Below are positions 4,269 through 49,546 of a stretch of 64,000 nucleotides of DNA, piece after piece; position 1 is the stretch's first letter; every line of letters starts with the position of its first letter. This DNA comes from Nothopassalora personata (Eukaryota > Ascomycota > Dothideomycetes > Mycosphaerellales > Mycosphaerellaceae). Below the pieces are notes generated by a model that saw only the letters and a list, made by a program, of their open reading frames with translations, was not told the origin of the DNA and ran no database searches. The stretch lies in NCBI GenBank assembly GCA_033816765.1, contig CM066287.1, positions 7,316,001 through 7,380,000 of the forward strand, read 5' to 3'. A program made the translations under genes and the position numbers.

Positions 4269-4362
4269 CTATCCCCCTTCTAGCCTAGCTTAGTCCCTTA
4301 AGCTTACTTATAACGAACGGTATCCTCTATGTATTCACGTATAGCTTCTTCCTTTTACGATG

Positions 4363-4914
4363 CCTATCCTCTAACGCCCTTCTAGCACTATCCGTCGCCG
4401 CCGTCTCTACGAGTTTGTTAAATCCGCGGAAGAAGTTATAGTTAAGAAATGCTTAACGTGTAAAAAGTATAGTCGCGTGTATAAAGTGCACATTCGTTCC
4501 GGGAAGTATAGTAAGTATCTTCGTCGCGGCTAAAGGTGCGATGTAAGAGTAACTTAGTTGGAGTTTAAGAGGTTAGTAGAGGAGAAGGCTCGTCTTCGTT
4601 AGAAAATCTAGGAGTCTCGGTCCGCTTAGGAGGAGGCGATACGGGTTTATAAGAAGGCTCTCGAGGACCTAAAGATTGCTCGCGCGCGCGAGGAGCGCTT
4701 ACGTTAGTAGATAGATCTAGTGGATCGTCGCGCCGAGGAGTCGATTTCCGTCGAGGAAAGGGAGATCGAGGAGTAGGAGATAGAAGAGGCTTCTTTACTT
4801 CCTTCGGATATCCCTTATAAGGGTCTAGCTCTTAACTTATTACTAGGTACATAGGGTACTATTAAGGGTCTCGGTAACGAGTTCTAGGAGGTGCCCGAAC
4901 TACTTTCCGCGGGT
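4363..4914 (+). pseudogene. Antisense zinc-cluster/coiled-coil gene of H, RIP-degraded
   Basis: Counterpart of the intact genes at 15050-15589 (D) and 47858-48418 (E). The + strand frame from the ATG at 4363 reads a basic N-terminus, then a cysteine-cluster region where several Cys codons have become Tyr (CLTCKKYSRVYKVHIRSGKY), a DVRVT motif and a long charged coiled coil, ending at TAA near 4914. Stops inside are TAG/TAA from Gln or Trp. It sits about 95 bp inside the 3' LTR and is convergent with H pol, leaving only a few bases between the two. Known of the family: nothing certain; the Zn2Cys6-like reading is taken from E. Confidence 0.75.
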
Positions 4915-14592: not shown

Positions 14593-14974
14593 TGTTATTG
14601 TCTCGTTCCAGGGCTAGTCTCAAAGAGAGATAAGTCAAGTCACGTGGCGGGATTATTCTTTGGAGAGGCTGAAGCAAGCTGAGCGAAGATGAATAATTGG
14701 AATAAGAGTTGTATTCCAATCAGTGAGATAGTAACATGAGTTGAACGCATTAGAACCATAAGGGTTTCTAGCGTTCCTAAATACAAAGGAGATTCGTAGA
14801 TCTCGGTGATCAGTCTGATCAGTCTGAGCATGAGCAGTCTGATCAGTCTGAGCATGAGCAGTCTGATCGCTCCAAGTCTGAGCGCTCAGGCAGGATGAGT
14901 CACGTGTTCGTCTTTGAGTCACGTGTTCGTCTTGTCATTATGATTCCAGGGTCCATGGGAATCATTCCGTAACA
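14593..14974 (-). repeat. D 3' LTR
   Basis: TGTTATTG...CCGTAACA, 382 bp. It contains two perfect tandem pairs: a 24-bp unit at 14817-14840/14841-14864 and a 19-bp unit with a CACGTG core at 14896-14914/14915-14933; another CACGTG lies near 14641. Because the antisense gene starts 75 bp inside this LTR, the LTR may also act as its promoter region (inference). Confidence 0.95.
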
Positions 14975-15049
14975 CCATCCCCTTCTTAGCCTAGCTTCGT
15001 CCCGAAGCTTCTTAAGTCATGTTGTACTTCCTTTTCGTGTCTCGCAACG

Positions 15050-15589
15050 ATGTCTTCTTCCTCCCACAAACGCCGTCAACGACTTGCTTCGGATACTGAA
15101 GTTTCCGGTATCGAAATGGCCCCATGTACGAATTGTCAGAAGTCTCGATCCTCGGGCGCAGTAGTGAGGTGTATCGTGGGCTCTCGGTCTGGGAAGTGTT
15201 CGGCCTGCATTCGAAAAGGCTGTAAGGATTGCGATGTGCGTCTTTCTCGTCCGGAGTGGGAACGCCTTCGCGATTCGCGCGATAAACTCAAGCTGGAGCT
15301 TGAGAGGATCGAAGAGGAGGAGGTGCGGCTGAAGATGCGCAAGATCCGTCTTCGGAAACAGCTACGGTTAGCTGAGCGTCGTACCGATGATGCCGTCGCT
15401 AAGGAGTTGGAGGAGCTCGAGGAAGAAGAGGCGCGCGAGGAGCTAGCGTCCCTTGAACAGGCGTCGGGGGTAGAGGTGCCTCCTTCGCTAGTTCCTTTCT
15501 CGGATATCCTAGAGATGCCCGTAAATGACTGGGCGGCGCTTTCTGGGGCGGAGCCTTGGGGCGAGTCCCTAGGGGTAGAGTCCCTTTAG
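15050..15589 (+). CDS. Antisense zinc-cluster/coiled-coil protein of D (179 aa)
   Basis: Intact frame on the strand opposite gag-pol, between pol and the 3' LTR. The N-terminus is basic (HKRRQR). Cysteines lie at residues 26, 29, 41, 50, 53, 58 and 61: Cx2Cx11C then Cx8Cx2Cx7C, like a fungal Zn2Cys6 cluster with an enlarged first loop. Residues about 70-145 are strongly charged and heptad-like (coiled coil), and the tail is acidic. Homologous in layout and sequence (DVR...W motif after the cluster) to 47858-48418 in E and to decayed copies in H and F. The ATG at 15050 follows a conserved leader with the AGCTTCGTCCCGAAGCTT hairpin. A DNA- or nucleic-acid-binding regulator is an inference; there is no proof of expression. 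Confidence 0.8.
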   Translation: MSSSSHKRRQRLASDTEVSGIEMAPCTNCQKSRSSGAVVRCIVGSRSGKCSACIRKGCKDCDVRLSRPEWERLRDSRDKLKLELERIEEEEVRLKMRKIRLRKQLRLAERRTDDAVAKELEELEEEEAREELASLEQASGVEVPPSLVPFSDILEMPVNDWAALSGAEPWGESLGVESL

Positions 15590-15628: not shown

Positions 15629-15701
15629 GGCTAGGTAGCTCAGTGGTAGAGCGCAAGTTGTCTACACTCTTGAGGTCGTGGGTTCGATTCCTACTCTAGC
15701 T
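15629..15701 (+). other. tRNA-like sequence between the antisense gene and pol of D
   Basis: 73 nt that fold as a tRNA: acceptor GGCTAGG/TCTAGCT (seven pairs, two G-U), D arm GCTCAGTGGTAGAGC (A-box-like), T arm GTGGGTTCGATTCCTAC (B-box GGTTCGATTCC). The anticodon arm is poor: only CAAG/CTTG pairs, with an 11-nt loop containing TTGTCTA (anticodon GUC if decoded). No CCA is encoded. It is absent at the corresponding place in H, F and E. A tRNA-derived insertion or SINE-like head is more likely than a working tRNA. Confidence 0.65.
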
Positions 15702-15708
15702 GCTCCCG

Positions 15709-15753
15709 GCGGACTGGTCACCAATCGGTGACTAGTCCGCTGGCCGCTTTTTT
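15709..15753 (+). terminator. Hairpin plus T6 after the tRNA-like sequence
   Basis: Stem GCGGACTGGTCACC / GGTGACTAGTCCGC (14 pairs, one G-U) with a 4-nt loop at 15709-15740, then TTTTTT at 15748-15753. On the + strand this is the layout of a Pol III transcript end. The pol stop codon lies inside the hairpin, so the last pol residues are encoded by it. Function inferred only. Confidence 0.45.
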
Positions 15754-18700
15754 GGTCTTGTAGTATTCCTGGATCTTTTGCTGACAGTTTCGTAGGTTTT
15801 GTTTTGGTTCCCAGGTATTTTCTGATTCGTCGTATCCTTTCCATTTGACAAGGTATCGCTGACCTTTCTTATCTAGGATTCTTTCGACTTCAAATTCGTT
15901 TTCTGCTTCCGGTTTAAAATGGAAGCTCTCCTGGCAGGGTGTTTCGGCGTCTGCGGGTTCCAACTTGGAGATATGGAAGACTGGGTGGATTTTGGCGTCT
16001 GGTGGTAGTCGTAGTCGATAGTTGACTAGTCCTACGACTTTGTCGATTAAAAATGGTCCGACCTTGACGTGATCCAGTTTCTTGGTCTGTCTTCTTGTTC
16101 TCAAGTTTTTTGTAAGGAGATAGACCTTATCCCCCTCTTTTAGCAGAGGTGCCATTTTTCTCGTGTCCTGCCGTTGTTGAGACAGTTTTCGTTGTGCATC
16201 TTCGATCGCCTTGCGTGTTTCTTTGTGCACTTCCTTAAGAGTGTCCGTCGTCACGATTGCTCTTTCGGCTTGTGGGTGGGATCCAGGTGTTCCAAATAGG
16301 TTAGGATCTTTACCAAAGTTCGCATAAAATGGCGTCGTTGAAGTTGTCTCCGATTTGTGGTTGTTCAGTGCAATCTGCGCCATTGGCAGTAATGAAACCC
16401 AGTTGTCTTGTGCGTAGTTGATGTAGTGTCGTAGGTATTGTTCTAGCGTTTGATTCATCCTTTCGGTTTGTCCGTCTGTCTCCGGATGATATGCTGTCGA
16501 CAGCTTGTGTTTGATTCCGATCGTTCCCATAAGCGTCTTCCAATAGTTCGATGTAAATAGCTTGTCTCTGTCCGTTATAAATGCTTGAGGGAATCCATGG
16601 TATCGGATAAGTCTGTCTAGTACGAGGTATCCGAGCTGCTCTGCATTGTACGTTTCCGATGCAGGAATGAAGTGTGCGTATTTCGTAAGTCTATCAACCA
16701 TGACTAGTATCATGTCGTATGGTTGTTTCGTAACTTGATCTCTTGACGGTGGGAGTTTCGTGATAAAGTCCATTGTGACTTCGTCCCATGGTTTCGTTGG
16801 TGGTGTCCTGAACTGTAGGTGACCGTATTTTGCGTGTCTCGCAGCCTTGTTTCGTTGGCAGTGTACGCATTGTTTAATATAGCGTGACACCTTAAGTCTC
16901 ATCTGTGGAAATGAGAAACTGCGCTGTATTAGGTCCATTGTTTTTGAAGTTCCGGGGTGTCCGTAATTTGGTCCGTCGTGATGTTGTCGTATGCATTCTT
17001 CTTCTCGATCCTTAGGTACTTGGTATTTTCCTTGCGATATAGGGAATTGTTCGTCCCTGTCGCCTAATATCCGTACGATGTTGTTAAATTCTCTTGTGTT
17101 GGCACTAAGACTTCCGTCGGGGTTTGTCTTTAGTATTTTATGTTGCACTGGTTCTTTTCCTTCCATGTAGTCGCTTCTTCGGCTCAACGCGTCGGCGCGG
17201 CCATTCTCTCGTCCTGGAGTATATTTGATTTCGAACTTATACTGTCCTAGCAGCTCCGACCAGCGGGCTTGCCTTCGGGTAAGTTCTTTCGTCGTCGTGA
17301 AGTACGTAAGATTCTTGTGGTCAGAAAGAATCGTTAACTTCGGTGGGCCCTCGACATATACTCTCCAATGTTGCATAGCAGCAACAATGGCTAGAAGCTC
17401 TTTATCATGGATGTCGTAGTTCTGTTCCGCTGTGGTCATTTTCCGGGAGTAATAGGCTACTGGGTGTCTCTGCCCGTCGTGTGTCTGTGTTAGACATGCG
17501 CCTATTGCCATATCAGACGCGTCGGTCTCGATGTGGACTTCCTTGCTACCATCGAATAGTCGAAGCGTGGGGGCTGAAGCGCATTGTTCCTTAAGTTTCT
17601 TGAATGCTTCAGTCTGTTCTTTTCCCCATTTCCAGGTGACGTCCTTTCTTGTAAGCATCGTCATTGGTGCTGCTATCTTTGAATAGTCCTTAATAAATTT
17701 CCGGTTGTAGTTCGCTAGTCCAAGGAATGATTGTACGTCCTTGACTGTTTTCGGTTCTGGCCACTCTCTAATTGACTGTGTCTTCGCAGGGTCGATCGTT
17801 ATCCCTGTGGTGCTAATAATGAAGCCTAAGAATTTGACTTCTTTCTTGTGGAATTCGCATTTCTCGGGTGCCGTCTTGAACCCTGATTGCGTGAGTCGTT
17901 CGAAGACGTCCTGGACTTGTTTTATGTGTTCCTGTAGGGACCCTTTTGTGTAGACCAGTATGTCGTCCATGTATGCGATAACGCATACATCGAGTAGGTC
18001 TCTAAGTGTTTCGTTGACAAGGTCCTGGCAGGATGCGGGTGCGTTGGTCAATCCCATTGGCATAACCAAGAATTCGTAAAGTCCGTATCTTGTTCTGAAA
18101 GCGGTTTTCCATTCTTCTCCTTCTGCCATCCGTATAGCGTAGAAGGCATCTCGTAGGTCAATCTTCGTGTACCAGTCTGATCCGGTTAATCTGTCTTGTG
18201 CTTCTTCGATGTTGGGTAGCGGGTATCGGTTCTTAATCGTGATCTCGTTTAACTTCCTGTAGTCTTGTACGAGTCGTAACTTCCCGTTTGCTTTTGGAAC
18301 GAACATACATGGAGTTCCTGCACTCGAGGTGGATCTTCTTATCCATCCTTTGGCTAGCTTCTCCTTCAGCCATTCTCGTAGGGTCTGTAGCTCTTTCTCA
18401 GACATTTGATATAGGGGTCCCCATGGAGGCTCTTTCCCTGGCTGAATGTTAATCTTATGATCCCATGGGCGGTGCTTAGGTAAGGCGGTTTTGCCTCTCT
18501 CCTCTTCAAAGAGTCGCGACCACTTGCGATACTCCTTGGGAATACTCAACTCTGAGATGTTAGTATTCTTCGATGGTGCGTTACTTCCATCACTTCCAGT
18601 GACTTCGTGACCCGGCGGCCCCACGCCAGTGTCTGTCCCGGTCGAAGGTGGTTCTTCTGTCCTTCTAGTCGGCGCAAGCTGTATCTCGTTTAGCTGTTTC

Positions 18701-19158
18701 CTTGCCTCATCTGCCAGTGAACGCTGCCACTGCGCAGGCTGAATGTCGACAACGCAATCGCATTCCCTAAATGTGAGTACTCCTCTTCTCCAGTCGATTA
18801 CTGGATTGTGCTTTCTCAACCAAGGCATACCTAATACTATGTCATGACTGGCCATATCAGTGACATCCAAGGTAATATTCTCGTGGTGCTGTTGGATAGC
18901 CAGTGGCAATGGTATCGTCTCCCATTCCACGCTAGGTAACGATGATCCGTTTACCGCGATCAACTCGTAACCCCATTTCTTCTTCAGGGTAGCTAACCCG
19001 TTTCTTCTTGTGAAAGACTCGGAGATAAAATTCCCCGCTGCTCCTGAGTCGATCATGACACTGGTTTTGTGTCCGTTGACGATTGCTTGTGTCTGGAAAA
19101 CTGTGTTTGATGTCGATGCGTGAGCCTGAGTGTTGCATAACTCCCTCCGGTCGCTCAT
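15718..19158 (-). CDS. pol: Gypsy pol polyprotein of D (1,146 aa)
   Basis: Copies the element RNA into DNA and inserts it. Order of domains: aspartic protease (VMIDSGAAGNF near residue 33), reverse transcriptase (YMDDILVY near 398), RNase H (ETDASD near 541), HHCC zinc finger (H..H..C..C, about 720-765), integrase D,D,E core (about 799, 863, 899; motif TDGQTERMNQ) and a C-terminal chromodomain (about 1089-1140; EFEVERIL, YLVKWKGY, TWEP). The chromodomain places it in the chromoviruses, which may target heterochromatin marks. The frame is complete. Its ATG overlaps the gag stop as ATGA, so translation by stop and restart, rather than frameshift, is the likely way pol is made. Confidence 0.97.
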   Translation of the reverse strand: MSDRRELCNTQAHASTSNTVFQTQAIVNGHKTSVMIDSGAAGNFISESFTRRNGLATLKKKWGYELIAVNGSSLPSVEWETIPLPLAIQQHHENITLDVTDMASHDIVLGMPWLRKHNPVIDWRRGVLTFRECDCVVDIQPAQWQRSLADEARKQLNEIQLAPTRRTEEPPSTGTDTGVGPPGHEVTGSDGSNAPSKNTNISELSIPKEYRKWSRLFEEERGKTALPKHRPWDHKINIQPGKEPPWGPLYQMSEKELQTLREWLKEKLAKGWIRRSTSSAGTPCMFVPKANGKLRLVQDYRKLNEITIKNRYPLPNIEEAQDRLTGSDWYTKIDLRDAFYAIRMAEGEEWKTAFRTRYGLYEFLVMPMGLTNAPASCQDLVNETLRDLLDVCVIAYMDDILVYTKGSLQEHIKQVQDVFERLTQSGFKTAPEKCEFHKKEVKFLGFIISTTGITIDPAKTQSIREWPEPKTVKDVQSFLGLANYNRKFIKDYSKIAAPMTMLTRKDVTWKWGKEQTEAFKKLKEQCASAPTLRLFDGSKEVHIETDASDMAIGACLTQTHDGQRHPVAYYSRKMTTAEQNYDIHDKELLAIVAAMQHWRVYVEGPPKLTILSDHKNLTYFTTTKELTRRQARWSELLGQYKFEIKYTPGRENGRADALSRRSDYMEGKEPVQHKILKTNPDGSLSANTREFNNIVRILGDRDEQFPISQGKYQVPKDREEECIRQHHDGPNYGHPGTSKTMDLIQRSFSFPQMRLKVSRYIKQCVHCQRNKAARHAKYGHLQFRTPPTKPWDEVTMDFITKLPPSRDQVTKQPYDMILVMVDRLTKYAHFIPASETYNAEQLGYLVLDRLIRYHGFPQAFITDRDKLFTSNYWKTLMGTIGIKHKLSTAYHPETDGQTERMNQTLEQYLRHYINYAQDNWVSLLPMAQIALNNHKSETTSTTPFYANFGKDPNLFGTPGSHPQAERAIVTTDTLKEVHKETRKAIEDAQRKLSQQRQDTRKMAPLLKEGDKVYLLTKNLRTRRQTKKLDHVKVGPFLIDKVVGLVNYRLRLPPDAKIHPVFHISKLEPADAETPCQESFHFKPEAENEFEVERILDKKGQRYLVKWKGYDESENTWEPKQNLRNCQQKIQEYYKTKKAASGLVTDW

Positions 19159-21176
19159 TCCTGGGGAGCTGATCCTTTTCCCGAATGGTATGCGGTTCGC
19201 TGTGCTTCGTGCCTAGAGGCTTCGGCTAGAACCTGTAGCCCGTTGCCCTGTGTCCACACTTGTAATCTATTGCGTTCCTGGATCTTCTGCGTTTCTGAGT
19301 AGAGAGCCCGTACATGCTGTACTGCTGTTCGTAATTCATTCGATATGAATGTCCCTGACGGTGTAAGATATCCGGTTCCTGTTATTCGGCTTCCTATCGG
19401 TGGTCGTTCTGTAATGGCGGTTGCTAGGTTCTCGGTTGTTTCCATGAGTGGGTATCCCCAGGCCATGCCTCGTAGGGTGTTAAGTGTCTTGTCAAACTCA
19501 ATGGAATGTAGCCTTCTTCGTCCGCCTATTTTAGGTAGGAATTCCTCGTGCCTTCTCTGTAGGTAGATAATCATGTCGTACAGTTTCTTAGGTGCATCTA
19601 CCGTGAAGGTAAGTTGTTCGTTGTCGTCGTTAGTGTCGCTCTCTTCTCCTTCGGAGGAATCTTCTTCGCTTGATTCTTCCGGATCCTGTTCTTCCTCGAT
19701 GGTATCTAGCCCGGTGGTTTCTTGACTTTCTTCCTGTGGTTCTGGTGACCATGATCCGTTCCATCCTGGGTCCTGATTTTCTTTGTCGCTTCCATCTTTG
19801 TTGAAGTAGGATTCATCGATGTCCACTTCTCTGAGCGTGGCGTCTTGCCTATGCGTCGCTCCTAGGGTTCCTCGTGGTTGCTGAGGCCAATACCCTGCGC
19901 CTGACTTCGCGGCGTAGTGGATTTGACACGAGTCTTGGTAACAGAATCGCCAATGAAGGCTTCCATGACCATTTCGAGACTCGGATTCGGTCTCGTAGTC
20001 GACTCTTCGTGTCATCATGTTGAACTGTCGTGGTTGGTTCTTCGCATCAAATGGAATGACCACCATTTGCTGCCCATGGTATCCTCCTCGTCCTTCTGAG
20101 GGGTCCAGGAGAGGCGTCGTGCTTCTGTTGCTAGCTCTCTCCTCCACTCTCCGAGTATAGTCGGTATCTCCCCGAGATCCAACGCTGCTCTCAGATTTAC
20201 TAGTTCGGGGTTGCATCATATTGAACTGCTCGCGGCGCACCATATTTTTACCGCGGCAATCCCGCGCCATGTGGCCTTCCTTGCCACAGGCATAACATGT
20301 GAGTTTTCCTTTTCCTTTTAAGGGCTTTCCGTGGCCCCTACTCTTATCGATCTTCCGTCCTCGTTGGGTAACGTCCAGTTCCATTGGCTGTGGTCCATAG
20401 TAGGGTTGGCTTTGTCGTGAGAATTCTCCCTTCGCAACGTATCCTCCTAAGGGTCTGCGGTCCGGAGCATATCCTGCTATTCCTCCTACTTTGGAGTCGT
20501 ATTTCTTCTCCTGGTGTCGTTCCCAGAGCTGGTCATCGATGTTGATCGACGCCTTCATTAGCTCTTCGAGGTTGGTGATCCGTCCCCCGTGTCTCATTAA
20601 CTCGTCCTTGACGGAGTCTTTGAGTCCACGTCGGAACATAGTCATCAACGCCGTCTGGTCCCATCTGGTGATTTGTCCGTACTCTTCGAATTTGGCGGCA
20701 TACTCTGAAGCAGACGTCTTCTGTTTCGGGTGTTGAATGATTCGTATGGCCTGTTGGACTTCGTTCGAGGTTCCAAAGATTGATTTCATCTTTTCTTTGA
20801 AAAGGGTGTAGCTCCTGAACATTCCAGTGGGGTCTAATCGTCCCATACCTTCAAGGTATTCCTTAAGGTAAGGTTTGATCCAGTTCTGCGCACTTCCGCG
20901 AAGGTACGTGATGGCGAAGATAGTCCTCTTATTAGCATCGACTGGGTTGAACATGAGGTACATATCCATCTGACTGATCCAGTCGTCGAACTTGGCTCTA
21001 TCTCCATAGAAGAGGTCTGGCTTAGCAGCCTTAACGTCATTCTTCCTTGGAATAGGCTCGTCATCGTCGTCAGACTCATCGTTCCTCGTAGCGGTCTGTT
21101 GTGGTGGCGCACGGCGGATGCTTCCTGCTTCGCTGGGGGCGGGTGTTCCCCTACCAGCTGCTTGAGTAGCGCTCAT
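19155..21176 (-). CDS. gag: Gypsy Gag of D (673 aa)
   Basis: Structural protein that forms the virus-like particle. The start chosen is the ATG at 21176 (MSATQAAGRG...), 17 bp inside the 5' LTR; the longer frame to 21320 would begin within the LTR. There is an acidic stretch after residue 30, a retrotransposon gag (capsid) domain about 50-220, a nucleocapsid knuckle CYACGKEGHMARDC near 294-307, then an unusually long C-terminal part of some 365 residues with a Glu/Asp/Ser-rich block. Gag of this length past the knuckle is more than most gypsy Gags have. Confidence 0.93.
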   Translation of the reverse strand: MSATQAAGRGTPAPSEAGSIRRAPPQQTATRNDESDDDDEPIPRKNDVKAAKPDLFYGDRAKFDDWISQMDMYLMFNPVDANKRTIFAITYLRGSAQNWIKPYLKEYLEGMGRLDPTGMFRSYTLFKEKMKSIFGTSNEVQQAIRIIQHPKQKTSASEYAAKFEEYGQITRWDQTALMTMFRRGLKDSVKDELMRHGGRITNLEELMKASINIDDQLWERHQEKKYDSKVGGIAGYAPDRRPLGGYVAKGEFSRQSQPYYGPQPMELDVTQRGRKIDKSRGHGKPLKGKGKLTCYACGKEGHMARDCRGKNMVRREQFNMMQPRTSKSESSVGSRGDTDYTRRVEERASNRSTTPLLDPSEGRGGYHGQQMVVIPFDAKNQPRQFNMMTRRVDYETESESRNGHGSLHWRFCYQDSCQIHYAAKSGAGYWPQQPRGTLGATHRQDATLREVDIDESYFNKDGSDKENQDPGWNGSWSPEPQEESQETTGLDTIEEEQDPEESSEEDSSEGEESDTNDDNEQLTFTVDAPKKLYDMIIYLQRRHEEFLPKIGGRRRLHSIEFDKTLNTLRGMAWGYPLMETTENLATAITERPPIGSRITGTGYLTPSGTFISNELRTAVQHVRALYSETQKIQERNRLQVWTQGNGLQVLAEASRHEAQRTAYHSGKGSAPQE

Positions 21177-21193
21177 CCTGAGGGCGTTCAAAG

Positions 21194-21575
21194 TGTTATT
21201 GTCTCGTTCCAGGGCTAGTCTCAAAGAGAGATAAGTCAAGTCACGTGGCGGGATTATTCTTTGGAGAGGCTGAAGCAAGCTGAGCGAAGATGAATAATTG
21301 GAATAAGAGTTGTATTCCAATCAGTGAGATAGTAACATGAGTTGAACGCATTAGAACCATAAGGGTTTCTAGCGTTCCTAAATACAAAGGAGATTCGTAG
21401 ATCTCGGTGATCAGTCTGATCAGTCTGAGCATGAGCAGTCTGATCAGTCTGAGCATGAGCAGTCTGATCGCTCCAAGTCTGAGCGCTCAGGCAGGATGAG
21501 TCACGTGTTCGTCTTTGAGTCACGTGTTCGTCTTGTCATTATGATTCCAGGGTCCATGGGAATCATTCCGTAACA
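21194..21575 (-). repeat. D 5' LTR
   Basis: 382 bp, same sequence as 14593-14974 by eye, including both tandem pairs. The inner neighbour on the minus strand is CTTTGAACGCCCTCAGG, then the gag ATG; this lacks a TGG-type tRNA primer site, and E has a related ACTTTGAGC at the same place. Confidence 0.95.
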
Positions 21576-36465: not shown

Positions 36466-36603
36466 AGATAATGTGAGTAGATTGATGTATTGAGAAGGAT
36501 CTACGAGAATGCGAAGAACAGCTAGCTATAAGAAAGTGCAAGAAAGCGCGCTAGTGGCTTGGCATCCAAAGAACTGCTGGGACACAGCCAGCCAGCATCA
36601 AGT
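36466..36603 (-). repeat. K 3' LTR
   Basis: 138 bp, same sequence as 46173-46310. The ends are not TG...CA in the usual way (the minus strand reads ACTTGATG...CATTATCT). A G5 run lies just inside (minus GGCATGGGGGTG). Confidence 0.88.
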
Positions 36604-36886
36604 CACCCCCATGCCGAGGCTCTAGGTGCTTGAAACAGGTGTATACACCCCACAGAAAGCATGCCGCCCCTCGCTCTCACCATGTCACTGTCCTCCATGT
36701 CGTCATACCGTTGGTTGCGCGGGAAGTGCCGGTGTAGCAGTGCGGCTGCTGTTGCTGAATGTTGAAGGTGTTTCTCGTGCGCTAATTGGCTGCACGGACA
36801 CCGCGGTCCTCAGTAAGTAACCGCCGTTGAGTTGAGTCGATTGGCGCAGTGTTGCTGTCGTCCAATGAGAGGCCTGAGAATAGGTG
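36604..36886. other. Unassigned segment between copia fragment and K LTR
   Basis: 283 bp of clean sequence, minus frame closed directly after RWVYAIKPG of the copia RT. It does not look like copia RT, nor like the 628-bp LTR. It may be the 3' untranslated end of K. Confidence 0.4.
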
Positions 36887-39800
36887 TCAACCAGGCTTGA
36901 TAGCATAGACCCATCTGCCACGCAGCACACGTGTGCCAGTTGGCAGTGTTGTCTTGTCCTTGTACAGCCATGTCTCGTATTGCTCGAGACTGGCGAATTC
37001 AGCTTCTTCGGCTGCACGCCACTCGGCGTGTTGTGGTGTTGCCATTGCGGCCTTGTGGCTCTTCGGTATGAGCACCGTTGCTGGATCTGGCCAGTCGGTT
37101 GCTGCCATGAAAGCAGTCACAGTCGCATGTGGCATCTCAGCAAGTTGCTTGCGGGTCGTCTTGCTGAGTGAGTGACACAGGGCCCTACGCTGCTTGCGGT
37201 TGGCTTCATATTGATAGCCGTTCAATGGGTCTCGAACTTCCGCAGGAGGGCGACGATTGCGCTGTGGCCGACCTGATGGCGTAGGTGGCACAGGTTGCCG
37301 AGCTGGCTGTGCCGGAGGTGTCGTGAAGTCGTCTTCATCGTCATCCTCAACAGAAGGTCTCGGAGGTGTTGTTGGTTGCACTTCCGGAAAGTCGTCAGGC
37401 GTCTCATCTTGATAGGAGTCCACTACTTCCTGTGAAAGGTCCTCATCCGACTGCTCGAGTGGTGAGTCCGCTGGACGGTCGATGACGGTGATGTTCTTCG
37501 GTGCTGTAACACCCCCAGAATCACCACCCCCAGGAGTCACACCGCGCTCAGCACCTGCTCGCCGTAGTCCTGTCTTGCGGTTGCGCTCCACTGGAAAGAT
37601 GTCTTCTCGAGTGATGAGCTCGTCGTCTTGATCTTGCTCAGTCTCAGAGTCACCGTCTTGGGCTGCCATAGGGTCGTTGCCCTCGATGAATTGAACGTCC
37701 TTGGTTCTGAACACTCTATGCGCCTTAGCAACATAGGCACGGTAGATGGTGCGGCTTTCGTATCCAACAAGCTTGCCCTGCAACGAGCGGGCGTCAAACT
37801 TCTCACCGCGACCGACGTTATGGTCGTACACGAAGGCGCGGCAGCCGTATGCTTTGAGGTGTGACAGGGAAGGCTTCACTGGTTGAGTGCCCTGCCAAGC
37901 GTTGATAACTTCTAGTGGTGACAGGCCCTTGATTGCTGCACTTGGTGTCAAGTTAAGAAGATAGACCGAAGCTTTCACTGCTTCTGGCCATAGGCTAGGT
38001 GGAAGGCCAGCGTCGATGAGCAGCTTACGTGCCATGACACAAACGATGTGGTTGCTGACTTCCGCACCACCATTCTGCTCTGAAGAATGAGGTGCTGTGA
38101 CTTGAAGAGCGAAGCCCTCATCGCGTGAGAGCTGCGTGAGTGAGTGTCCTCCATATTCGCCACCCCCATCTATGCGGAAGATCACAATTGCTGTGCCATA
38201 TTGTGTCTTCACATGACGGTGGACCACTCGAATATGCTGCGCAGCACCGTCCTTCTGTGCGGAAGCGAATACTGTGCGTTGTAGGCTGGCCAGGCAGGTG
38301 AATAGCGTGAAGTAACGCTCCTTGCCAATGCCAAGGTTGCGGACCGTGACAACATCCACAGCAACAATATAGTATGGTGTTGTTGGCCGCACCATCGGAA
38401 TGCGGTTGTAGACCTTGTGACCCATCCCCTTACGACAGGGGATGCACTCGCGTGGGTGCTTGCTGAGGTCGCTATCACTGTTGCCAACAATGGTGATGCG
38501 CTTGTCGTTGTGAAGCTGCAGCAACTTGCGGCTGTGGATGTGTCCAAGTCGGCGGTGCCACAGGTCTCCTGTAGCAGCTGTCGATGGCTCGACCTTGGAC
38601 GAAGTGAGGGCTGTCGCTGAGTCCTTCATCTTCAAGAATGGCAGTCCATTGTGGGTGTAGCAGTGTGCCACCGTACGCGCAGAAGTCCCCTTTGTGAATA
38701 GGATCTGCTCGTCGTTGCGATAATAGACACCCTTGCGGCGAAGAGCCTCTGTCGAAATCAGATTGGCTGCAAGGCCTGGTACGTACAACACCTGTGAGAA
38801 GCCAGTGATGCCGCATCCATACAGATCCAGTTGGACGATGCCACAAGCTGTAGCAGTGATGGTGCCACTGCCTGTCTTGATAAGAACAGTGCAGGGCCGG
38901 TAGTCCATCATATTGCTCAGCTTGTTTGTCATGTGAGAAGTGCAGCCAGAGTCCACAACCCAGTCGGTGTTGCTCTTCGCTGCAAGCAGCGCTGAGGTGT
39001 CTTGAATGATGTCGTCCTGGCCCACAGTCATATACATGCTGTGAGAGCCGTTGAATGGAGTCATCAAGTCCTCGAAGTTGGTAGCGCCGTGAGCCGCAAA
39101 CTGTGCGGTCTCAGTGTGCTGTGCGTCAGTGGTGTTGTTGACTTGCTGACGCTGTTGTTGATTGCCCTGCTGCTTCTTCTTCCAGGTAGCAGGTGCAAGC
39201 TCAGGGTGTAGGTTCCAGCAACCAGCTGGTTGGTGAGTGGTCATGCCACAACCACTGCAGGGGTCGTATTGAGGCTTCTGCTGTTGGTTGTTGTTGCCAC
39301 CACCATTCTGATTACCACCACGAGCGCCGTTGCCGTTGCCGCGGCCTCCACGACCTCCTCGTCCGCCGCGTCCGTTACCACGTGGTGCGCCGCCGCCGCG
39401 AGGGGTGTTGCCGTTGCCCTGTGGGTTGGCAGGGTTGGCGTTGTTTTGTTGCTTCACTGCGAGATTGGCTGACTCGGACTGTTGCGCAGTCGCCTCATCA
39501 AGCAGATCACTGATCACCTTGTCGAGTGTGATAGTGGTACTGTCCTCGATCTTTCCAGTAAGCTGCCTCATCTGTTCACGCTTTGAGGACGCGAATGTTG
39601 GGAAGTATGGTGAGATCTGATACAGGAAGCGGAAGAGAGCTTGAGCCTTTGATATGGCTAACTCGGTGTTCTTGAGGTTGGCCAGCTTCGACTGATATTG
39701 CTGGCAGAACTTGTCAAGGTTGGAGCCACCATATGTGTGTGACTCGAAGTCCAGGTACAACGAGTACTCTTCGGACTTGCCAGTTTGACCGTATGTGGAC

Positions 39801-40270
39801 TTCAGATGGTCCCATAGGTCTTCCGGTTGTTGGTAGGCTTTGCAGTTGTCTGCAATAGACTGACTGCAGTTAGCAATAATGAGGGCGCGGGCTTGATACT
39901 TCTTTGCCTCCCATGCCTCGATACGCTCTTCGAGTTCATAGTCTTCCTCATTCTTGCGCTTCGTGGGCTTCGGCTTGAGGGCAGTCTTGTCGACAAACCC
40001 CCATAGCAGGTCACCTCGCAGGACTGACTGTAACATATCAGCCCATCTCGAGTAGTCGTCCTTGCCTTGAAGTTTGGAGACACCAGGGGTGCCGTTGTTG
40101 TTACGGCCGACCATGTTGCTAAAGCCGCGAGTTGATACAGCAGGCTTCTTGGTCTTTCGGGTAGCAGCCGACTCGGTCTGCTGTTGTTGCTGGCTCGGAG
40201 TGGCGACAGACTGCTGCGCCAGCGGTATTTCGAGTCCAGTGAGGTCAGTGTTGTTACCGTCAGTATCCAT
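36887..40270 (-). CDS. Ty1/copia gag-pol, truncated in RT (1,127 aa)
   Basis: Single frame: UBN2-type copia Gag (about residues 60-260), Gly/Asn-rich linker, zinc finger CSGCGMTTHQPAGC (C-x2-C-x4-H-x4-C, about 335-350), protease WVVDSGCTSHM, gag-pre-integrase LWHRRLGHIH, integrase (VDVVT, RIDGGGEYGG, SSEQNGGAEVSN: all three acidic residues visible), then the RT N-terminus WRAAEEAEF...LRGRWVYAIKPG and stop. A full copia element would have another 500-600 residues of RT and RNase H, which are missing. The frame is otherwise intact, so the break is recent. It cannot move on its own but could still yield Gag and integrase. Confidence 0.9.
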   Translation of the reverse strand: MDTDGNNTDLTGLEIPLAQQSVATPSQQQQQTESAATRKTKKPAVSTRGFSNMVGRNNNGTPGVSKLQGKDDYSRWADMLQSVLRGDLLWGFVDKTALKPKPTKRKNEEDYELEERIEAWEAKKYQARALIIANCSQSIADNCKAYQQPEDLWDHLKSTYGQTGKSEEYSLYLDFESHTYGGSNLDKFCQQYQSKLANLKNTELAISKAQALFRFLYQISPYFPTFASSKREQMRQLTGKIEDSTTITLDKVISDLLDEATAQQSESANLAVKQQNNANPANPQGNGNTPRGGGAPRGNGRGGRGGRGGRGNGNGARGGNQNGGGNNNQQQKPQYDPCSGCGMTTHQPAGCWNLHPELAPATWKKKQQGNQQQRQQVNNTTDAQHTETAQFAAHGATNFEDLMTPFNGSHSMYMTVGQDDIIQDTSALLAAKSNTDWVVDSGCTSHMTNKLSNMMDYRPCTVLIKTGSGTITATACGIVQLDLYGCGITGFSQVLYVPGLAANLISTEALRRKGVYYRNDEQILFTKGTSARTVAHCYTHNGLPFLKMKDSATALTSSKVEPSTAATGDLWHRRLGHIHSRKLLQLHNDKRITIVGNSDSDLSKHPRECIPCRKGMGHKVYNRIPMVRPTTPYYIVAVDVVTVRNLGIGKERYFTLFTCLASLQRTVFASAQKDGAAQHIRVVHRHVKTQYGTAIVIFRIDGGGEYGGHSLTQLSRDEGFALQVTAPHSSEQNGGAEVSNHIVCVMARKLLIDAGLPPSLWPEAVKASVYLLNLTPSAAIKGLSPLEVINAWQGTQPVKPSLSHLKAYGCRAFVYDHNVGRGEKFDARSLQGKLVGYESRTIYRAYVAKAHRVFRTKDVQFIEGNDPMAAQDGDSETEQDQDDELITREDIFPVERNRKTGLRRAGAERGVTPGGGDSGGVTAPKNITVIDRPADSPLEQSDEDLSQEVVDSYQDETPDDFPEVQPTTPPRPSVEDDDEDDFTTPPAQPARQPVPPTPSGRPQRNRRPPAEVRDPLNGYQYEANRKQRRALCHSLSKTTRKQLAEMPHATVTAFMAATDWPDPATVLIPKSHKAAMATPQHAEWRAAEEAEFASLEQYETWLYKDKTTLPTGTRVLRGRWVYAIKPG

Positions 40271-40292
40271 ACACTGCAGAGCACCAACTAGG

Positions 40293-40920
40293 TGTCACTG
40301 CGATACTTGCCGCGTTGCCCACTGGGTCGCGACTTTGTCGTTTGCTATTTGCTGCAGTCGCGTTTTGTCGCAATCACCAACCAGGCGTTGTCGACATACA
40401 CGCGATCAGCAGGATCACATACAGGGCGAAAGCCTGGCTTGGAACTGAGAGTGAAAACTGAAATGCAAATGCGAAGTGCAAGTGCAAAAGGTATGGTCTA
40501 GTAGCTACACAGAACGAAAGACGAAGAGGAGAAGAGAGGCCTGGGGGAAGGCCGACTATTTAAACCCCCGCGTTGCGCGTGCGCGTCCCTGCATCACCGC
40601 AAATAGCCGGGCCCTGGGGTGAGTCACAAACCTTATTCTTAGCCACCCCACATCTCGCACCTTCCACGTGCTTCCATTCACCCCTCGGGTACTCGCGGGT
40701 CTTCTCTAAGTCGCGGGCGGTGATGTAGTGAAGACCCGAAGTGAATCCCTCAACAGGTACTCGAGATATCGTATGCTGGGGCTGGGTCCCGCAGTGAATC
40801 TTGTCGGGCATGTGATTCTTTGCAATCACATGCAAACTTGAACATTCACTTCCAGTCTCTCTTGGGCCAGAAGGCTTCTCAGCACCTACACTCTGTATCA
40901 CCTGAGGAGAGACCGTGACA
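40293..40920 (-). repeat. Copia-type LTR (single) inside K
   Basis: 628 bp with inverted ends TGTCAC...GTGACA on the minus strand. It is preceded by a G8 purine tract (complement of 40925-40932) and followed by CCTAGTTGGTGCTCTGCAG and the copia ATG at 40270, so it fits as the 5' LTR of the copia half. The minus strand has TTTAAATAG near 40560, a possible TATA element. Its partner 3' LTR is absent. The last part of the K pol frame (to 40560) runs into it. Confidence 0.7.
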
Positions 40921-43900
40921 GTAGCCCCCCCCAAGTAGGCTGAGTTCCCACGAAGCCCTAGGAGGTGCAAATATCGAGGATGTTCATTCTCCGTGCCTGG
41001 TGTTGGTCTCATGTCACGGTCGATGCACCATTGGTACACTGGGTCGAAGATCTCTGACTCGTATACACGGCCGAAGTTGGGGATATCGGCATCGCCGGCA
41101 GCGTTGGTGTGGAACTCTTCAATAGGGCCTCTGTTGTAGACAATGTGCTGGATTGGTTCCCAGGTAGTATCCCATGCTTCTGCATTTTGCCATTGCACAT
41201 GGTACACCATTCCTGGTAGCCCTGCGACTGGGTTAGGTTCCCAGCGGAAGCCAATGATCTTGCGGACGTTTTCTTCTTGTTCCGTGTCATCAGAATAGTC
41301 TTCTCCTTCAGCAGGAGGCTCAGGCATATCTTGGTCTTGATTTGGGAACGGGTCGTTGCCAGCCGGCCGTAGGCGGACCGCATGGAAGACGTCGTGGATA
41401 CGCATGTGTTCCGGGAGAGCTAGACGATAGGCGTGAGAACTTACTTTCTCAGTAACTTGAAAGGGGCCTAGTCGCTTCCAGTCCAGCTTCTTGCAAGGTC
41501 GATCTGTCTTGATATCCTTTGAGTCTAGGTAGACCATGTCGCCTACTTGGTAGTCAGGCGCAGGCTGGCGTCGGCGGTTGGCATAGTGTTCCTGAACGGC
41601 TTGTGCATAGCTCATCTCGTCTTGAATCTCTTGGTGGATCTCATGGAGGTGGAGAGCTAGCTCGTCTGCTGCTTCTTCCTTGAAATTTGCTGGTGGGGGA
41701 AGAGGATCTTCGGGTTCTGCGCCAGAGCGAGGGTGATAGCCCCTCGTAGCGTAGAACGGCGAGTATCCTGTGGTATCTGAATCCCAATTCCGAGCGGCAA
41801 ATTCAACAGACGGGAGGTGACGAGCCCAGTCCTTCTGGTGGTAGTCAACAAAGCAGCGGAGGACTTGCTCGAGCATAGCGTTCATAATCTCCGTCTGCCC
41901 ATCCGTTTGAGGCTGGTAGGCAGTCGAGAGATAGTGCTTGATGCCAACAAGGACCATAAGTCGCTTCCAGAAGTCAGAGGTGAACTGCGTGCCTCGATCA
42001 GAGATAATGCTGTCGGGTAGGCCAATATGGCGGTAAACAAATTCAAAGAAGAGTCTAGCTGTCTCTTTGGCGGTCATGCTCCAGCAAGGAATAAGGAACC
42101 GGTCCTTTGTAAGCCGATCCACAATCACAAGGATAGCGCGAGCTTTGAAGCCAAAGTAGGTCGTACTGGTAGGTAGACCTGTGATGAAGTCCATAGTAAT
42201 ATGCCTCCAGGGACGGTCAGGAGCTGGGAGAGGCTTCAAGAGGCCATGAGGCCGAGAACGGTCAGTCTTAACCCTACTACAGATAGCGCAGTTCTTGACG
42301 TAGCGGCGGACTGTCTTCCAAGAGTCTTGCCACCAGTAATGCCTAGCGAGGAGTCGGTGGGTCTTTGCCACTCCTGGGTGACCAGCTGAAGGAGCATCGT
42401 GTACGGCTTGAATAATCTCTGCTCGAATATTGGAGCCCTCGGGCTCAGGAACGTACAGGCGTTTTCGGTAATAGACGACGCCCTCTTGAAGTTCGCACTC
42501 AGACAGTGAGAAGCCAGGGAAGGTCCTTGCCCCTGATTCGAGGGCTTGAATCAAACCTTGAGCTCCCTCGTCTGCCTCGTACGCACGGCGAATGCGACGC
42601 ATGAGCCCTTCAGGCTCTTCTTCATCTTCAAAGCCTTCAAAGTCTGATTCGGAAGAGCCTTCTGAAGTTACTGAGCCTTCTTCGTCGTCGTTCAAATCTT
42701 CAAGGTCGCTATCGGGCTCAGACTCACTATCACTGTCATCAAAGGATGCAGGAGCGAGTAGGAGCGTTGCGAAAGAGGCAGAGAGGTACGAAGTATCTGT
42801 ATTGGCTTCTTCCTTCAATTCTTCAGCGAGGTTGTACTCTTTGAGCACTGTCTGCTTAGCAATGTGCTGCCCAACGCCACGGTCAACAGGCAGGTCGCCG
42901 GGGCGTCGAGTAAGAGCGTCGGCAAGCGTATTAGCCTTGCCAGGAGTGTACTGGATCACGAAATTGAACCGTGAAAGGTACTCGCTCCAGCGAGCCTGCC
43001 TACGGTTTAGGAGCTTGCTTTTCATGAAATACACGAGGTTCTTGTGATCGGAGCTGACCTGAATTGGCATAGCGGAGCCTTCAAGTTCCGGGCGCCACTC
43101 TTCAAATGCCTTGACGATAGCGAGGAGCTCTTTGTCGTAGATCTCGTAGTTGCACTCAGCCCCAGTCATCTTCTTTGAGAGGTAGGCAACAGGCAACCAC
43201 GGGTGTTCTGGCGAGCGACGCTGCAAGAGCACGCCGCCAACAACACCGTCCGATGCGTCAGTCTCTACGCGGGTCTCCAGTTCAAAGTCGAAGTGCTGGA
43301 GGATAGGGTTCTCAACAAATTTTGCTTTTAGCAGTTCAAATGCTTGTTGGCACTCAGGGGTCCATTCAAAGCGTTCTCCCTTACGCGTCAGCTTGTGCAT
43401 ACAGCGGACAACGCTGGAGAAGCCATGGATAAAGCGGCGGTAGAAGTTGGCAAAGCCAAGGAAGCCCTGAACCTCCTTAACGTTCGTAGGAGCAGCCCAC
43501 TTCTTGATAGCCTCAATCTTCTCTGGATCCATCTTGATACCCTTAGCCGAGATAATAAGGCCGAGGAACTTGACTTCGGTCTCGATGAACTCGCATTTGT
43601 CGATATCGAGCTGCACGCCGGCATCGAGGAGCTTCTGAAGCACCTTCCGGACGTGGATGTTGTGTTCTTCAAGAGTCTCACTGAAGATCAAAATATCATC
43701 AATATAGGCGGTAGCAAATTCGTCAAACTCTCTCAGTAGCTCGTTGATGAAGTGCTGAAAGGTGCCGGGCCCGTTACAGACGCCAAAAGGCATAACGTTG
43801 GACTGGAACAGCCCGTAACGAGTACGGAAAGCTGTTAGCCACTCGTAGCCCTTTGCCATTCGTAGCGAATTGAAGGCAGCAACGATGTCGAGTTTGGTGA

Positions 43901-44861
43901 AGTACTTGGCTTTGGAAAGGCGTTCGAGTGTCTCCTGGATTAAAGGTATTGGGTATCTGTTCTTCTTGGTAACAGCATTCAAGCCGCGGTAATCTACGCA
44001 GAGGCGTAGGCCACCACCGGGCTTCTTGACGAACATGACGGGACTGCTAGCCTGAGAGACGCTTGGCTCAATGAACCCCTTTTTTAGGTTCGTCTCGAGC
44101 CATTTCTTAAGTACAATGAGCTCTTCACGAGACATAGAGTAGAGGGGTCCCTTTGGAGGGTCAGCACCTTCCTCTAGCTCGATTTTCATGTCGAAGCCAG
44201 GACGGTGTGGCGGTAGGCTTTCCATTTTGGCGGGATCGAATACACCTAGGAGGTCGTGCCATTGCTCGGGCACTTTCTCCTTTGGGTCGGTAGGGCTACT
44301 GTTGGGATCCAGCTTCTTTATAGCTACGGCAACATCATCCATAGATGCAGCGGCTAGCCGGATGTCCTCTTGCTGGGCTCTTGATCGTAGAGGCCTTGGA
44401 GGAGCCTGAGGCGAAGCGGGAACACTGCTAGAATCTTCGTTGTTTGCTGGATAGTCCTCGTATCCAGAGATGGTGAGGTTCTCCCAGTCAACAAGAGGTT
44501 TGAATTTCTTGAACCAGGAGAGACCAAGGACGAACTGGTACTTCGGGAGCTTCGAGATATATGCCATGACGGGCATTGTCCTTCCTGCGAGAGTCACTGT
44601 TGTGTGAACAACATGAGTGATCTTCTCGGCGGAGGGAGTACCGTCAAACATAAGCAAGGTACGAGGGTATCTGAGTTTTTGGAGCTTCAACTTATGACGA
44701 GAAGCACATTCAGGGTCCATGAATGTCTCCGTCAGGGCGCCGGTATCCAGGAAGGAAGTAGTAGAAAGTTGTTTAGGATTCTTCAGTTTTGAGCCTATCT
44801 GTACTTCGGCGAGGAATGGCTTAGAAATCTTGCCATCGCCGTCATCAAATAGCTCAATCAC
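40560..44861 (-). CDS. pol: Gypsy pol of K (about 1,430 aa, read by -1 frameshift)
   Basis: Protease (FLDTGALTETF), RT (YIDDILIFS), RNase H (VETDASD), HHCC zinc finger (H..H..C..C in HDAPSAGHPG...CAICSRVK), integrase core (DFITGLP, SDRGTQFTSDFW, HPQTDGQTE) and a C-terminal chromodomain-like segment (VYHVQWQ...TWEPI). The codon at 44861 is GTG, not ATG; the frame is open upstream to the slip site at 44945-44951, so this is the pol part of a Gag-Pol fusion. The last about 120 codons (after NSAYLGGA) come from the copia LTR and are unlikely to be native. Confidence 0.92.
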   Translation of the reverse strand: MIELFDDGDGKISKPFLAEVQIGSKLKNPKQLSTTSFLDTGALTETFMDPECASRHKLKLQKLRYPRTLLMFDGTPSAEKITHVVHTTVTLAGRTMPVMAYISKLPKYQFVLGLSWFKKFKPLVDWENLTISGYEDYPANNEDSSSVPASPQAPPRPLRSRAQQEDIRLAAASMDDVAVAIKKLDPNSSPTDPKEKVPEQWHDLLGVFDPAKMESLPPHRPGFDMKIELEEGADPPKGPLYSMSREELIVLKKWLETNLKKGFIEPSVSQASSPVMFVKKPGGGLRLCVDYRGLNAVTKKNRYPIPLIQETLERLSKAKYFTKLDIVAAFNSLRMAKGYEWLTAFRTRYGLFQSNVMPFGVCNGPGTFQHFINELLREFDEFATAYIDDILIFSETLEEHNIHVRKVLQKLLDAGVQLDIDKCEFIETEVKFLGLIISAKGIKMDPEKIEAIKKWAAPTNVKEVQGFLGFANFYRRFIHGFSSVVRCMHKLTRKGERFEWTPECQQAFELLKAKFVENPILQHFDFELETRVETDASDGVVGGVLLQRRSPEHPWLPVAYLSKKMTGAECNYEIYDKELLAIVKAFEEWRPELEGSAMPIQVSSDHKNLVYFMKSKLLNRRQARWSEYLSRFNFVIQYTPGKANTLADALTRRPGDLPVDRGVGQHIAKQTVLKEYNLAEELKEEANTDTSYLSASFATLLLAPASFDDSDSESEPDSDLEDLNDDEEGSVTSEGSSESDFEGFEDEEEPEGLMRRIRRAYEADEGAQGLIQALESGARTFPGFSLSECELQEGVVYYRKRLYVPEPEGSNIRAEIIQAVHDAPSAGHPGVAKTHRLLARHYWWQDSWKTVRRYVKNCAICSRVKTDRSRPHGLLKPLPAPDRPWRHITMDFITGLPTSTTYFGFKARAILVIVDRLTKDRFLIPCWSMTAKETARLFFEFVYRHIGLPDSIISDRGTQFTSDFWKRLMVLVGIKHYLSTAYQPQTDGQTEIMNAMLEQVLRCFVDYHQKDWARHLPSVEFAARNWDSDTTGYSPFYATRGYHPRSGAEPEDPLPPPANFKEEAADELALHLHEIHQEIQDEMSYAQAVQEHYANRRRQPAPDYQVGDMVYLDSKDIKTDRPCKKLDWKRLGPFQVTEKVSSHAYRLALPEHMRIHDVFHAVRLRPAGNDPFPNQDQDMPEPPAEGEDYSDDTEQEENVRKIIGFRWEPNPVAGLPGMVYHVQWQNAEAWDTTWEPIQHIVYNRGPIEEFHTNAAGDADIPNFGRVYESEIFDPVYQWCIDRDMRPTPGTENEHPRYLHLLGLRGNSAYLGGATVTVSPQVIQSVGAEKPSGPRETGSECSSLHVIAKNHMPDKIHCGTQPQHTISRVPVEGFTSGLHYITARDLEKTREYPRGEWKHVEGARCGVAKNKVCDSPQGPAICGDAGTRTRNAGV

Positions 44862-44938
44862 GTTGAGTCGTAAAGCCTTTCTCTTCTTTCCTTCCTGTTC
44901 AACACGTAGAAGGTCTTCTTCGCGACTTGGAAGAAGAC

Positions 44939-46168: not shown

Positions 46169-46172
46169 AACC

Positions 46173-46310
46173 AGATAATGTGAGTAGATTGATGTATTGA
46201 GAAGGATCTACGAGAATGCGAAGAACAGCTAGCTATAAGAAAGTGCAAGAAAGCGCGCTAGTGGCTTGGCATCCAAAGAACTGCTGGGACACAGCCAGCC
46301 AGCATCAAGT
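46173..46310 (-). repeat. K 5' LTR
   Basis: 138 bp identical by eye to 36466-36603; a minus-strand TTATAGCTAGC lies in its middle. TSD GTTCT follows at 46311-46315. Confidence 0.88.
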
Positions 46311-47784: not shown

Positions 47785-47857
47785 CCATCCCCCTTCTAGC
47801 CTAGCTTCGTCCCGAAGCTTACAAGATGTCATTCCTTTCCAACTTTGTCATCCAACG

Positions 47858-48418: not shown

Positions 48419-48521
48419 GTTCGTCCTTTATCTGTTTTCCGTGTCGTAGTGTTGACTTCTGTGTCCTAGGTCATCAAATCAAGAAGCCGCTGTTTGATGC
48501 CTCGTCATCAGGTTGTTTCTG

Positions 48522-49520: not shown

Positions 49521-49546
49521 AGGGCCCTGGTGGTGGTGCTCAAAGT

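Follow-up and report, generated by a model that had tools for sequence, protein, structure and literature searches.

In a 64,000-nucleotide stretch of the genome of the ascomycete Nothopassalora personata (assembly GCA_033816765.1, contig CM066287.1, positions 7,316,001 to 7,380,000; hereafter the window), two long terminal repeat (LTR) retrotransposons, D and E, carry beside their 3' LTR an intact gene that reads against the rest of the element. On balance we favor the view that this antisense gene encodes a small transcription factor, made by the retrotransposon for its own U3 region. Purifying selection acts on the gene in both pairs of families in which it could be measured, the protein has the appearance of a small activator, and the gene and the adjoining U3 are exchanged between elements as one cassette.

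D is a complete Ty3/gypsy chromovirus of the fungal kind that has an antisense accessory gene (the Boty/brtn kind): its pol includes a chromodomain, and the antisense gene is placed between the stop of pol and the 3' LTR. Its LTRs (3' LTR at 14593–14974, on the left of the plus strand; 5' LTR at 21194–21575; both minus strand) are identical, 382 bp each and flanked by a 5-bp target-site duplication (TACTA). Gag, with a zinc knuckle (19155–21320; the listed open reading frame starts with TTG, and the ATG-start frame has 673 amino acids), and pol (15718–19158; 1146 amino acids with protease, reverse transcriptase, RNase H, integrase and chromodomain) lie on the minus strand. The antisense gene runs on the plus strand from an ATG at 15050 to a TAG at 15589, an open frame of 179 amino acids. 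E, which also has identical LTRs (3' LTR at 47466–47784 and 5' LTR at 49547–49865, minus strand; 319 bp each; target-site duplication AGCAG), is a 2.4-kb gag-only element, since its antisense gene (plus strand, ATG at 47858 to TAA at 48418; an open frame of 186 amino acids unspliced) faces gag (48522–49520, minus strand) and no pol lies between the LTRs. The two antisense genes are homologous (BLASTP 2e-19; 51 of 155 columns identical, 33%), and neither overlaps pol or gag; in two other families of this genome, L039 and L045, the antisense frame runs into the 3' end of the pol frame.

A sequence-only reading of the window had placed such a gene in four elements, and tblastn and BLASTP bear this out. 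The other two are decayed relatives: H (4360–4914, plus strand) is 79% identical to the open gene of family L045 and carries nine TAG and two TAA stops, and F (about 58879–59430, minus strand), a distant member of another decayed family (best E value 1.8e-13, 35% identity), carries stops and has a U3 with a (AGGCACTCT)n array. A tblastn search of the window with 15 family proteins (E up to 1e-4) matched these four places only, among the three best matches listed per bin; the match at E extends to 48522. Whole elements were examined for E, L044 and L047, all of which have an LTR pair, a target-site duplication and gag, and no pol; for L051–L058 about 2 kb each was examined, and neighboring copies of L052 and of L056 lie about 2.1 kb apart.

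The encoded proteins have a cysteine cluster. Zn2Cys6 domains follow the pattern C-x2-C-x6-C-x5-12-C-x2-C-x6-8-C, and the cluster of E (C36–C66; C-x2-C-x6-C-x8-C-x2-C-x7-C) fits it, as do those of the other proteins that we call type I (L039, L040, L044, L045, L056, P0004 and others). In D (C26–C61) the spacing is C-x2-C-x11-C-x8-C-x2-C-x7-C; thus the Gal4-type spacing first read in E and the enlarged first loop first read in D both stand. Such a loop (x11–13) is found in half of the families, our type II (D, L047, L051, L052, L055, L057 and L058), which keep all six cysteines outside the Zn2Cys6 pattern. The cluster is followed by a long coiled-coil helix (residues 72–144 in E, 67–139 in D) and, in 47 of 47 homologues, by an acidic tail. 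Judged by its sequence, the combination of cluster, coiled coil and acidic tail looks like the plan of a small Gal4-type activator, and structure models of type I proteins suggest a Zn2Cys6-like fold, with structural matches to Zn2Cys6 factors. Sequence searches of the PDB gave no Zn2Cys6 protein among the matches listed, and NCBIfam gave coiled-coil and other chance-like matches (25 of 29 families listed). A further Pfam scan of the antisense proteins listed 25 of 81 families; neither D and E (matches with E up to 1) nor 10 + 10 homologues had TRP28 (PF04195) among their Pfam matches.

An open antisense frame is by itself no evidence of a gene, because the window contains other plus-strand frames of 131–154 amino acids opposite minus-strand frames; homology, codon-position bias and the number of families together make this one more than chance. 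We computed the ratio of nonsynonymous to synonymous divergence (dN/dS) for 16 pairs of families with open frames, of which L052/L053 and L047/L051 were usable. For L052/L053 it was 0.083 by NG86 (dN 0.070, dS 0.848) and 0.15 by YN00 (0.080/0.520), and for L047/L051 it was 0.16 (dN 0.297, dS 1.834) and 0.17 (0.297/1.788), with differences at the three codon positions of 13/15/72 and 60/41/111, respectively. Distant pairs had saturated or undefined dS, the L040 group had too few differences (0–4), and L046 was excluded, its values (NG86 dN 0.088, dS 0.12) arising partly from a frameshifted start. The gene is therefore under purifying selection in both measurable pairs, as the sequence-only reading had suspected, and a frame conserved in this manner is evidently translated and useful. 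Frame and cysteines are retained across families down to a protein identity of 28%.

A predicted intron adds to the case for translation. In seven of the nine families on the gag chassis, the stop codon together with the final base of exon 1 makes a donor (G|TAAGT or G|TAGGT), after which come a TTGAC branch site and, at 54–61 nucleotides, a YAG, and splicing would give a common end, ..SNQEAAV. In E the predicted intron (GTAAGT..TTGAC..CCTAG; 55 nucleotides, 48415–48469, plus strand) ends the antisense frame with ..SSSNQEAAV. The donor is the more independent evidence, because branch site and acceptor sit in the common backbone. An intron antisense to the genomic RNA survives retrotransposition unremoved. 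L051 ends in ..HQESAV without an intron, L056 has no such donor, and no such intron was found in D, L039, L040 or L045 in a search that covered the gag-chassis acceptor only.

The source genome (54.5 Mb, 40 contigs) holds about 14 families of the gene with uninterrupted frames. We searched it with seven proteins, and the copy numbers are lower bounds, each search having scored the best 150 of 541–863 candidates. Open copies number at least 27 for E (and at least 5 with one stop), 16 for D, 15 for L039, 14 each for L047 and L056, 9 for L051, 3 each for L044 and L057, 2 for L053 and 1 for L055. The L040 group has at least 14 copies, including the frameshift-start L046, and at least 10 with one stop; L045 has at least 4 open and at least 1 with one stop; L058 at least 8 and at least 13; and L052, which is 86% alike to L053, at least 19, along with at least 3 L054-type copies whose start is shifted. 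Many further matches carry several stops each, mostly TAG, the pattern expected from repeat-induced point mutation (RIP). Relatives also occur outside this genome and these elements: a profile of 19 proteins found 60 (E up to 0.01) and a profile of 37 found at least 258, of which 120 were listed (E up to 0.001), only candidates with the most shared words being scored in both searches. Named sources include Elasticomyces, Cladosporium, Cercospora kikuchii, Hortaea, Oleoguttula, Bathelium and Xanthoria (Cercospora and Bathelium are Dothideomycetes; Xanthoria is a lecanoromycete). One UniRef name begins "Zn(2)-C6 fungal-type domain-", and most of the 120 are unnamed or called "hypothetical protein." Scans of viral contigs with P0002 and P0026 found no relative.

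Two observations on broken copies deserve mention. One antisense-gene family (80% to L047) has fourteen decayed copies with equal score and stops, placed near the end of a contig and on small contigs (G000:C9:5367, C9:20171, C20, C21, C30, C31, C33, C34, C39 and C40), as if a repeat region had been multiplied after RIP. At L063 (G000:C6:4935200-4936700), beside an L058-type U3, a chimeric broken gene has an L058-type start, without the second half of the cluster, fused to a D-type coiled coil.

Comparison between families separates the elements into a common backbone and a divergent end. D is 93–100% identical to L045 and L040 in gag-pol and 88–92% over the initial 250 bases of the LTR, which hold U5-R and some of U3, versus 52–69% in windows 251–1000 (the remaining U3 and most of the antisense gene). 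Likewise, E against L044 and L047 is 95–100% identical in gag and 80–99% over the initial 200 LTR bases, and 39–62% in the gene windows. The gag of E is 95–99% identical to that of eight other families, and the antisense proteins of these gag-sharing families have a median identity of 38% (range 28–86, 36 pairs). In L058 a D-type R-U5 (97%) is joined to an E-type gag piece (99%). Since gag-pol or gag is nearly identical where U3 and the gene have diverged, U3 and gene are exchanged as a unit between backbones and behave as one cassette. Such exchange is as expected from template switching between two RNAs in one particle, a process that is discussed, in the available part of the account, for co-packaged RNAs of crapaud (PMC10787394).

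The exchanged U3s differ in their repeats. In most families the interval between a TATA-like site and the polypurine tract holds short repeats that occur in either orientation. In the 3' LTR of D, positions 1 to about 200 of the plus strand would be U5-R and the remainder U3; a putative TATA-like anchor CTAAATACAAAGG (minus strand CCTTTGTATTTAG; 14777–14789), present in D, L039, L040, L045 and L058, lies beside an array of CTGATC/CTGAGC half-sites at 14808–14889 (second copy at 21409–21490). The E array, TGCTCTC/GAGAGCA, lies at 47651–47711 (second copy at 49732–49792), and its top 6-mer was equalled by 1 of 200 shuffles. Both arrays are candidate operators or upstream activating sequences. 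L052 shares CTGATC/CTGAGC with D, L045 has TGATCA/ACTGAT, L039 and L056 have CAGATC, E, L040 and L051 have GAGAGC (with GAGATC also in L040 and L051), and L057 and L058 have GGTCG. GAKC exceeded shuffles in 11 of 13 U3s (z at least 2.2), and in 10 of the 13 the top 6-mer was equalled by at most 10 of 200 shuffles. Like proteins tend to adjoin like arrays on different backbones (L057/L058, D/L052 and E/L040). A CCAAT/ATTGG box within 90 nucleotides of the inner end of the LTR in 8 of 13 families (E, L039, L040, L044, L055, L056, L057 and L058) is a possible promoter element of the antisense gene.

A single residue column splits the three CT families from the seven xA families perfectly, a result that 7 of 120 relabelings equal over 20 columns. 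Ten of the 14 families were used (L053, L055, L057 and L058 were omitted), with L044 labeled A despite mixed flanks and L047 having a minority of CT. For 10 decayed loci from eight families, the residue predicted the array in six of eight by script count and in five of eight by eye, the array of L067/F being GAGTGC-like; L069 was against (1:4; its sibling L065, 3:2) and L070 slightly against (1:2). This prediction was set down alongside the retrieval of the sequences, RIP-tolerant patterns were picked after viewing them, and several of the decayed families are kin of in-sample ones. Given the relabeling result, the post hoc patterns and this kinship, the one-residue code is only suggestive.

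Between the polypurine tract and the antisense ATG lies a palindrome of 6–9 pairs with a TCC-like loop, present in 16 of 16 sequences (two decayed); in D (14993–15009) and E (47803–47819) it reads AGCTTCG-TCC-CGAAGCT. Five of its seven pairs have changed on both sides across families, 94.5% of cells pair, there are 16 double changes where shuffles give 4.4 and none of 500 reached 16, and sliding the partner abolishes pairing; the count of further pair types is ordinary (177 of 500 shuffles), and L057 and L058 are one column off register in the alignment. The palindrome is a second selected structure in this region. Because it is common to families with different arrays, it is not a family-specific site; it may serve in plus-strand priming, in packaging or in the antisense leader.

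How might the cassette work? In the reading we favor, the protein would dimerize through its coiled coil, its zinc cluster would bind the family-specific array in the U3 of the element's own LTRs, and its acidic tail would activate transcription from that array. In the 5' LTR the array would stand immediately upstream of the TATA-like site for gag(-pol), and in the 3' LTR the same U3 would drive the antisense gene, creating positive feedback. Because U3 and gene are adjacent at the 3' end of the genomic RNA, a single template switch during reverse transcription would move both to a new backbone, so that matched factor–operator pairs would be exchanged together. The exchanged DNA takes in the probable on-switch of the element, which points to a private control system in each family. 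The sequence-only reading had proposed a self-encoded regulator, and the plan of cluster, coil and tail and the coupling to U3 strengthen that proposal; DNA binding and regulation by the protein we infer. More tentatively, and in our view less likely than not, the cassettes may be matched modules like those of heteroimmune phages, each a private Zn2Cys6-type regulator that moves between shared gag-pol backbones together with the U3 array to which it responds and takes its specificity in part from the residue four after the fifth cysteine (Asn for xA-GAKC, Gly for CT-GAKC, with a VDVR subtype for GGTCG).

The protein could instead be a repressor, a copy-number or immunity factor with which each family shuts its own U3 (in the 5' LTR) and its own gene, so that a new combination of U3 and gene escapes the resident copies and bursts, again like heteroimmune phages. 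Escape from family-specific repression predicts many families of near-identical copies and different cassettes on one backbone, as we find, and the gag-only elements each retain a gene of their own, none borrowed. Nevertheless, the acidic tail of all 47 homologues resembles an activation domain, which makes an activator more likely than a repressor, and we saw no sign of repression in the sequence; we consider repression unlikely, although it is the main rival. Improbable, in our judgment, is a nucleic-acid partner that acts after transcription (in RNA or cDNA binding, nuclear import, packaging or integration targeting), with the arrays being host-factor sites that travel along as neighbors. 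Adjoining sequences would be exchanged jointly whatever their function, the similarity of whole clusters was no significant predictor of U3 similarity, and the covarying palindrome beside the polypurine tract is another selected structure in the region; yet the Zn2Cys6 fold is of a DNA-binding class, the tail is acidic, and U3 changes with the gene whereas R-U5 changes far less.

We give very little credence to the idea that the antisense RNA and not the protein is functional, through interference or double-stranded RNA against gag-pol. The frame does overlap the 3' end of pol in L039 and L045, but the genes of D and E stand clear of pol and gag, and RNA function would not account for the codon-position bias, the dN/dS of 0.08–0.17 or the cysteines kept at low protein identity. 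It is barely credible that the gene was captured from the host, or arose as a chance frame, and has no role: chance antisense frames of similar length do occur in the window, but purifying selection refutes chance, and the gene has about 14 families and homologues in several ascomycete genera.

Several results weigh against a Zn2Cys6-type regulator matched to its U3. Pfam Zn_clus (PF00172) matched 9 of 47 members (E up to 1), the best at an E value of 0.064 and 13.8 bits against a cut-off of 21, and matched none of 10 further homologues and neither D nor E; Foldseek with the D model returned no Zn2Cys6 row (one row, E 6.9). L039 departs from backbone sharing, its gag-pol windows being 55–93% identical to those of D. 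GAKC is not enriched in E (z 1.3) or L057 (−0.3), L044, L047 and L055 did not pass the top-6-mer test, and the arrays and half-site were derived from the same sequences on which they were later tested. A Mantel-type test of whole-cluster against U3 similarity across backbones (5 × 8 families; 13 families, L053 omitted) gave r 0.15, p 0.17 and a Spearman coefficient of 0.03, and in L045 the best U3 partner differs from the best protein partner.

The proteins resemble Gal4, Hap1, Leu3 and Pho7 in the cluster spacing of E and type I, the long helix, the acidic tail and the structural matches of their models. They differ in being encoded by a mobile element, in their length of about 180–240 amino acids, in scoring below the Zn_clus cut-off, in the enlarged first loop of half the families and in adjoining GAKC-like or GGTCG repeats; Zn2Cys6 factors have sites of CGG triplets. 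Elements of the TR-GAG type are gag-only, non-autonomous LTR elements, and E, L044 and L047 resemble them in having LTRs, gag and no pol, with the difference that an antisense gene for a candidate regulator is kept. By analogy, the antisense protein would work like an own regulator of the Tat/Tax/HBZ type; by membership, the gene belongs with the antisense genes of fungal chromoviruses, here with a Zn2Cys6-like product. HBZ of human T-cell leukemia virus (HTLV), a mammalian retrovirus, is a basic leucine zipper (bZIP) protein rather than a zinc cluster, and to our knowledge the HTLV antisense gene is not exchanged with U3. The likeness is that the 3' LTR drives an antisense gene and that the product of this gene acts on transcription; APH-2 and an antisense promoter of the 3' LTR are mentioned in the available parts of two accounts (PMC11963269, PMC7264820).

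Whether such genes had been described was a question that the sequence-only reading left unanswered. Zhao et al., writing in Virology (417:248) in 2011, are said to have described a brtn antisense gene in Boty-like elements. Passages of several papers give brtn as the antisense gene of Boty-like chromoviruses of Botrytis cinerea (PMC7264820, PMC8365987, PMC4227169, PMC5987419), elements that, compared by description only, resemble D in being fungal gag-pol elements that have a chromodomain and, between pol and the 3' LTR, an antisense gene, and whose accounts, in those passages, mention neither a zinc cluster nor U3 arrays nor cassette exchange. The name BRTN is absent among the 60 and the 120 listed homologues, most of them unnamed. 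Plant elements are also known to have antisense genes at this place; the antisense open reading frame of Retand shares place, orientation and a suspected DNA-binding or regulatory role, and differs in its TRP28 domain (PF04195), its non-chromovirus lineage and, in the parts available, the lack of any reported exchange of regulator and U3 (PMC7264820, PMC11963269). In crapaud of Podospora, an LTR element with a chromodomain, 14 subfamilies differ in U3 only, with R-U5 and most of the inner region in common; the available part of the paper leaves the cause open, uses the word "antisense" 0 times in the main text and gives two open reading frames in a figure legend (PMC10787394). In the portions of the open-access literature at hand, outside which most subscription papers lie, we found no Zn2Cys6-type antisense protein, protein–U3 match or exchange. 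As far as these partial sources go, then, an antisense gene at this place is known from plants and Boty, and the zinc-cluster plan, the coupling to U3 and the cassette exchange are new.

In D, and in five of seven elements of the L040 group (not L041 or L049), the antisense gene is followed by a tRNA-like sequence. In D it lies at 15629–15703 (plus strand), between the antisense stop and the pol stop, was found by ARAGORN and scores 52.5 bits in Rfam, with, by eye, intact A and B boxes and an irregular anticodon arm; a 17-pair hairpin and TTTTTT follow it (15629–15753 in all). Its acceptor stem shows, by eye, a compensatory pair difference between D and L040. ARAGORN found no such sequence in L039, L045, E, L044 or L047. 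We considered a suppressor tRNA (anticodon CTA, the stops of decayed copies being mostly TAG) and dropped it for two reasons: the anticodon arm is irregular, and 36 of 40 scored matches (of 393 candidates) adjoin antisense genes found in our other searches, the other 4 being untraced.

Just inside the 5' LTRs (21185–21193 in D, 49537–49546 in E) the sequence does not, by eye, start with the TGG that is usual for a tRNA primer site, and priming may be of another kind. Another element of the window (36466–46310), with identical 138-bp end repeats and minus-strand frames of 1127, 1433 and 409 amino acids, has no homologue of the antisense gene by tblastn.

Finally, we note what the cassettes may mean for these elements. 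In one genome about 14 antisense proteins occur naturally, each combined with a U3 and mostly on backbones that are shared, so that the specificity of protein for U3 is directly testable. A natural set of this kind, in which proteins and sites come in pairs, would help in learning the specificity of Zn2Cys6 proteins. Cassette exchange might explain the U3-only diversification of fungal LTR families such as crapaud. If our reading is true, retrotransposons can depend on a transcription factor of their own and thereby avoid cross-control by their relatives.
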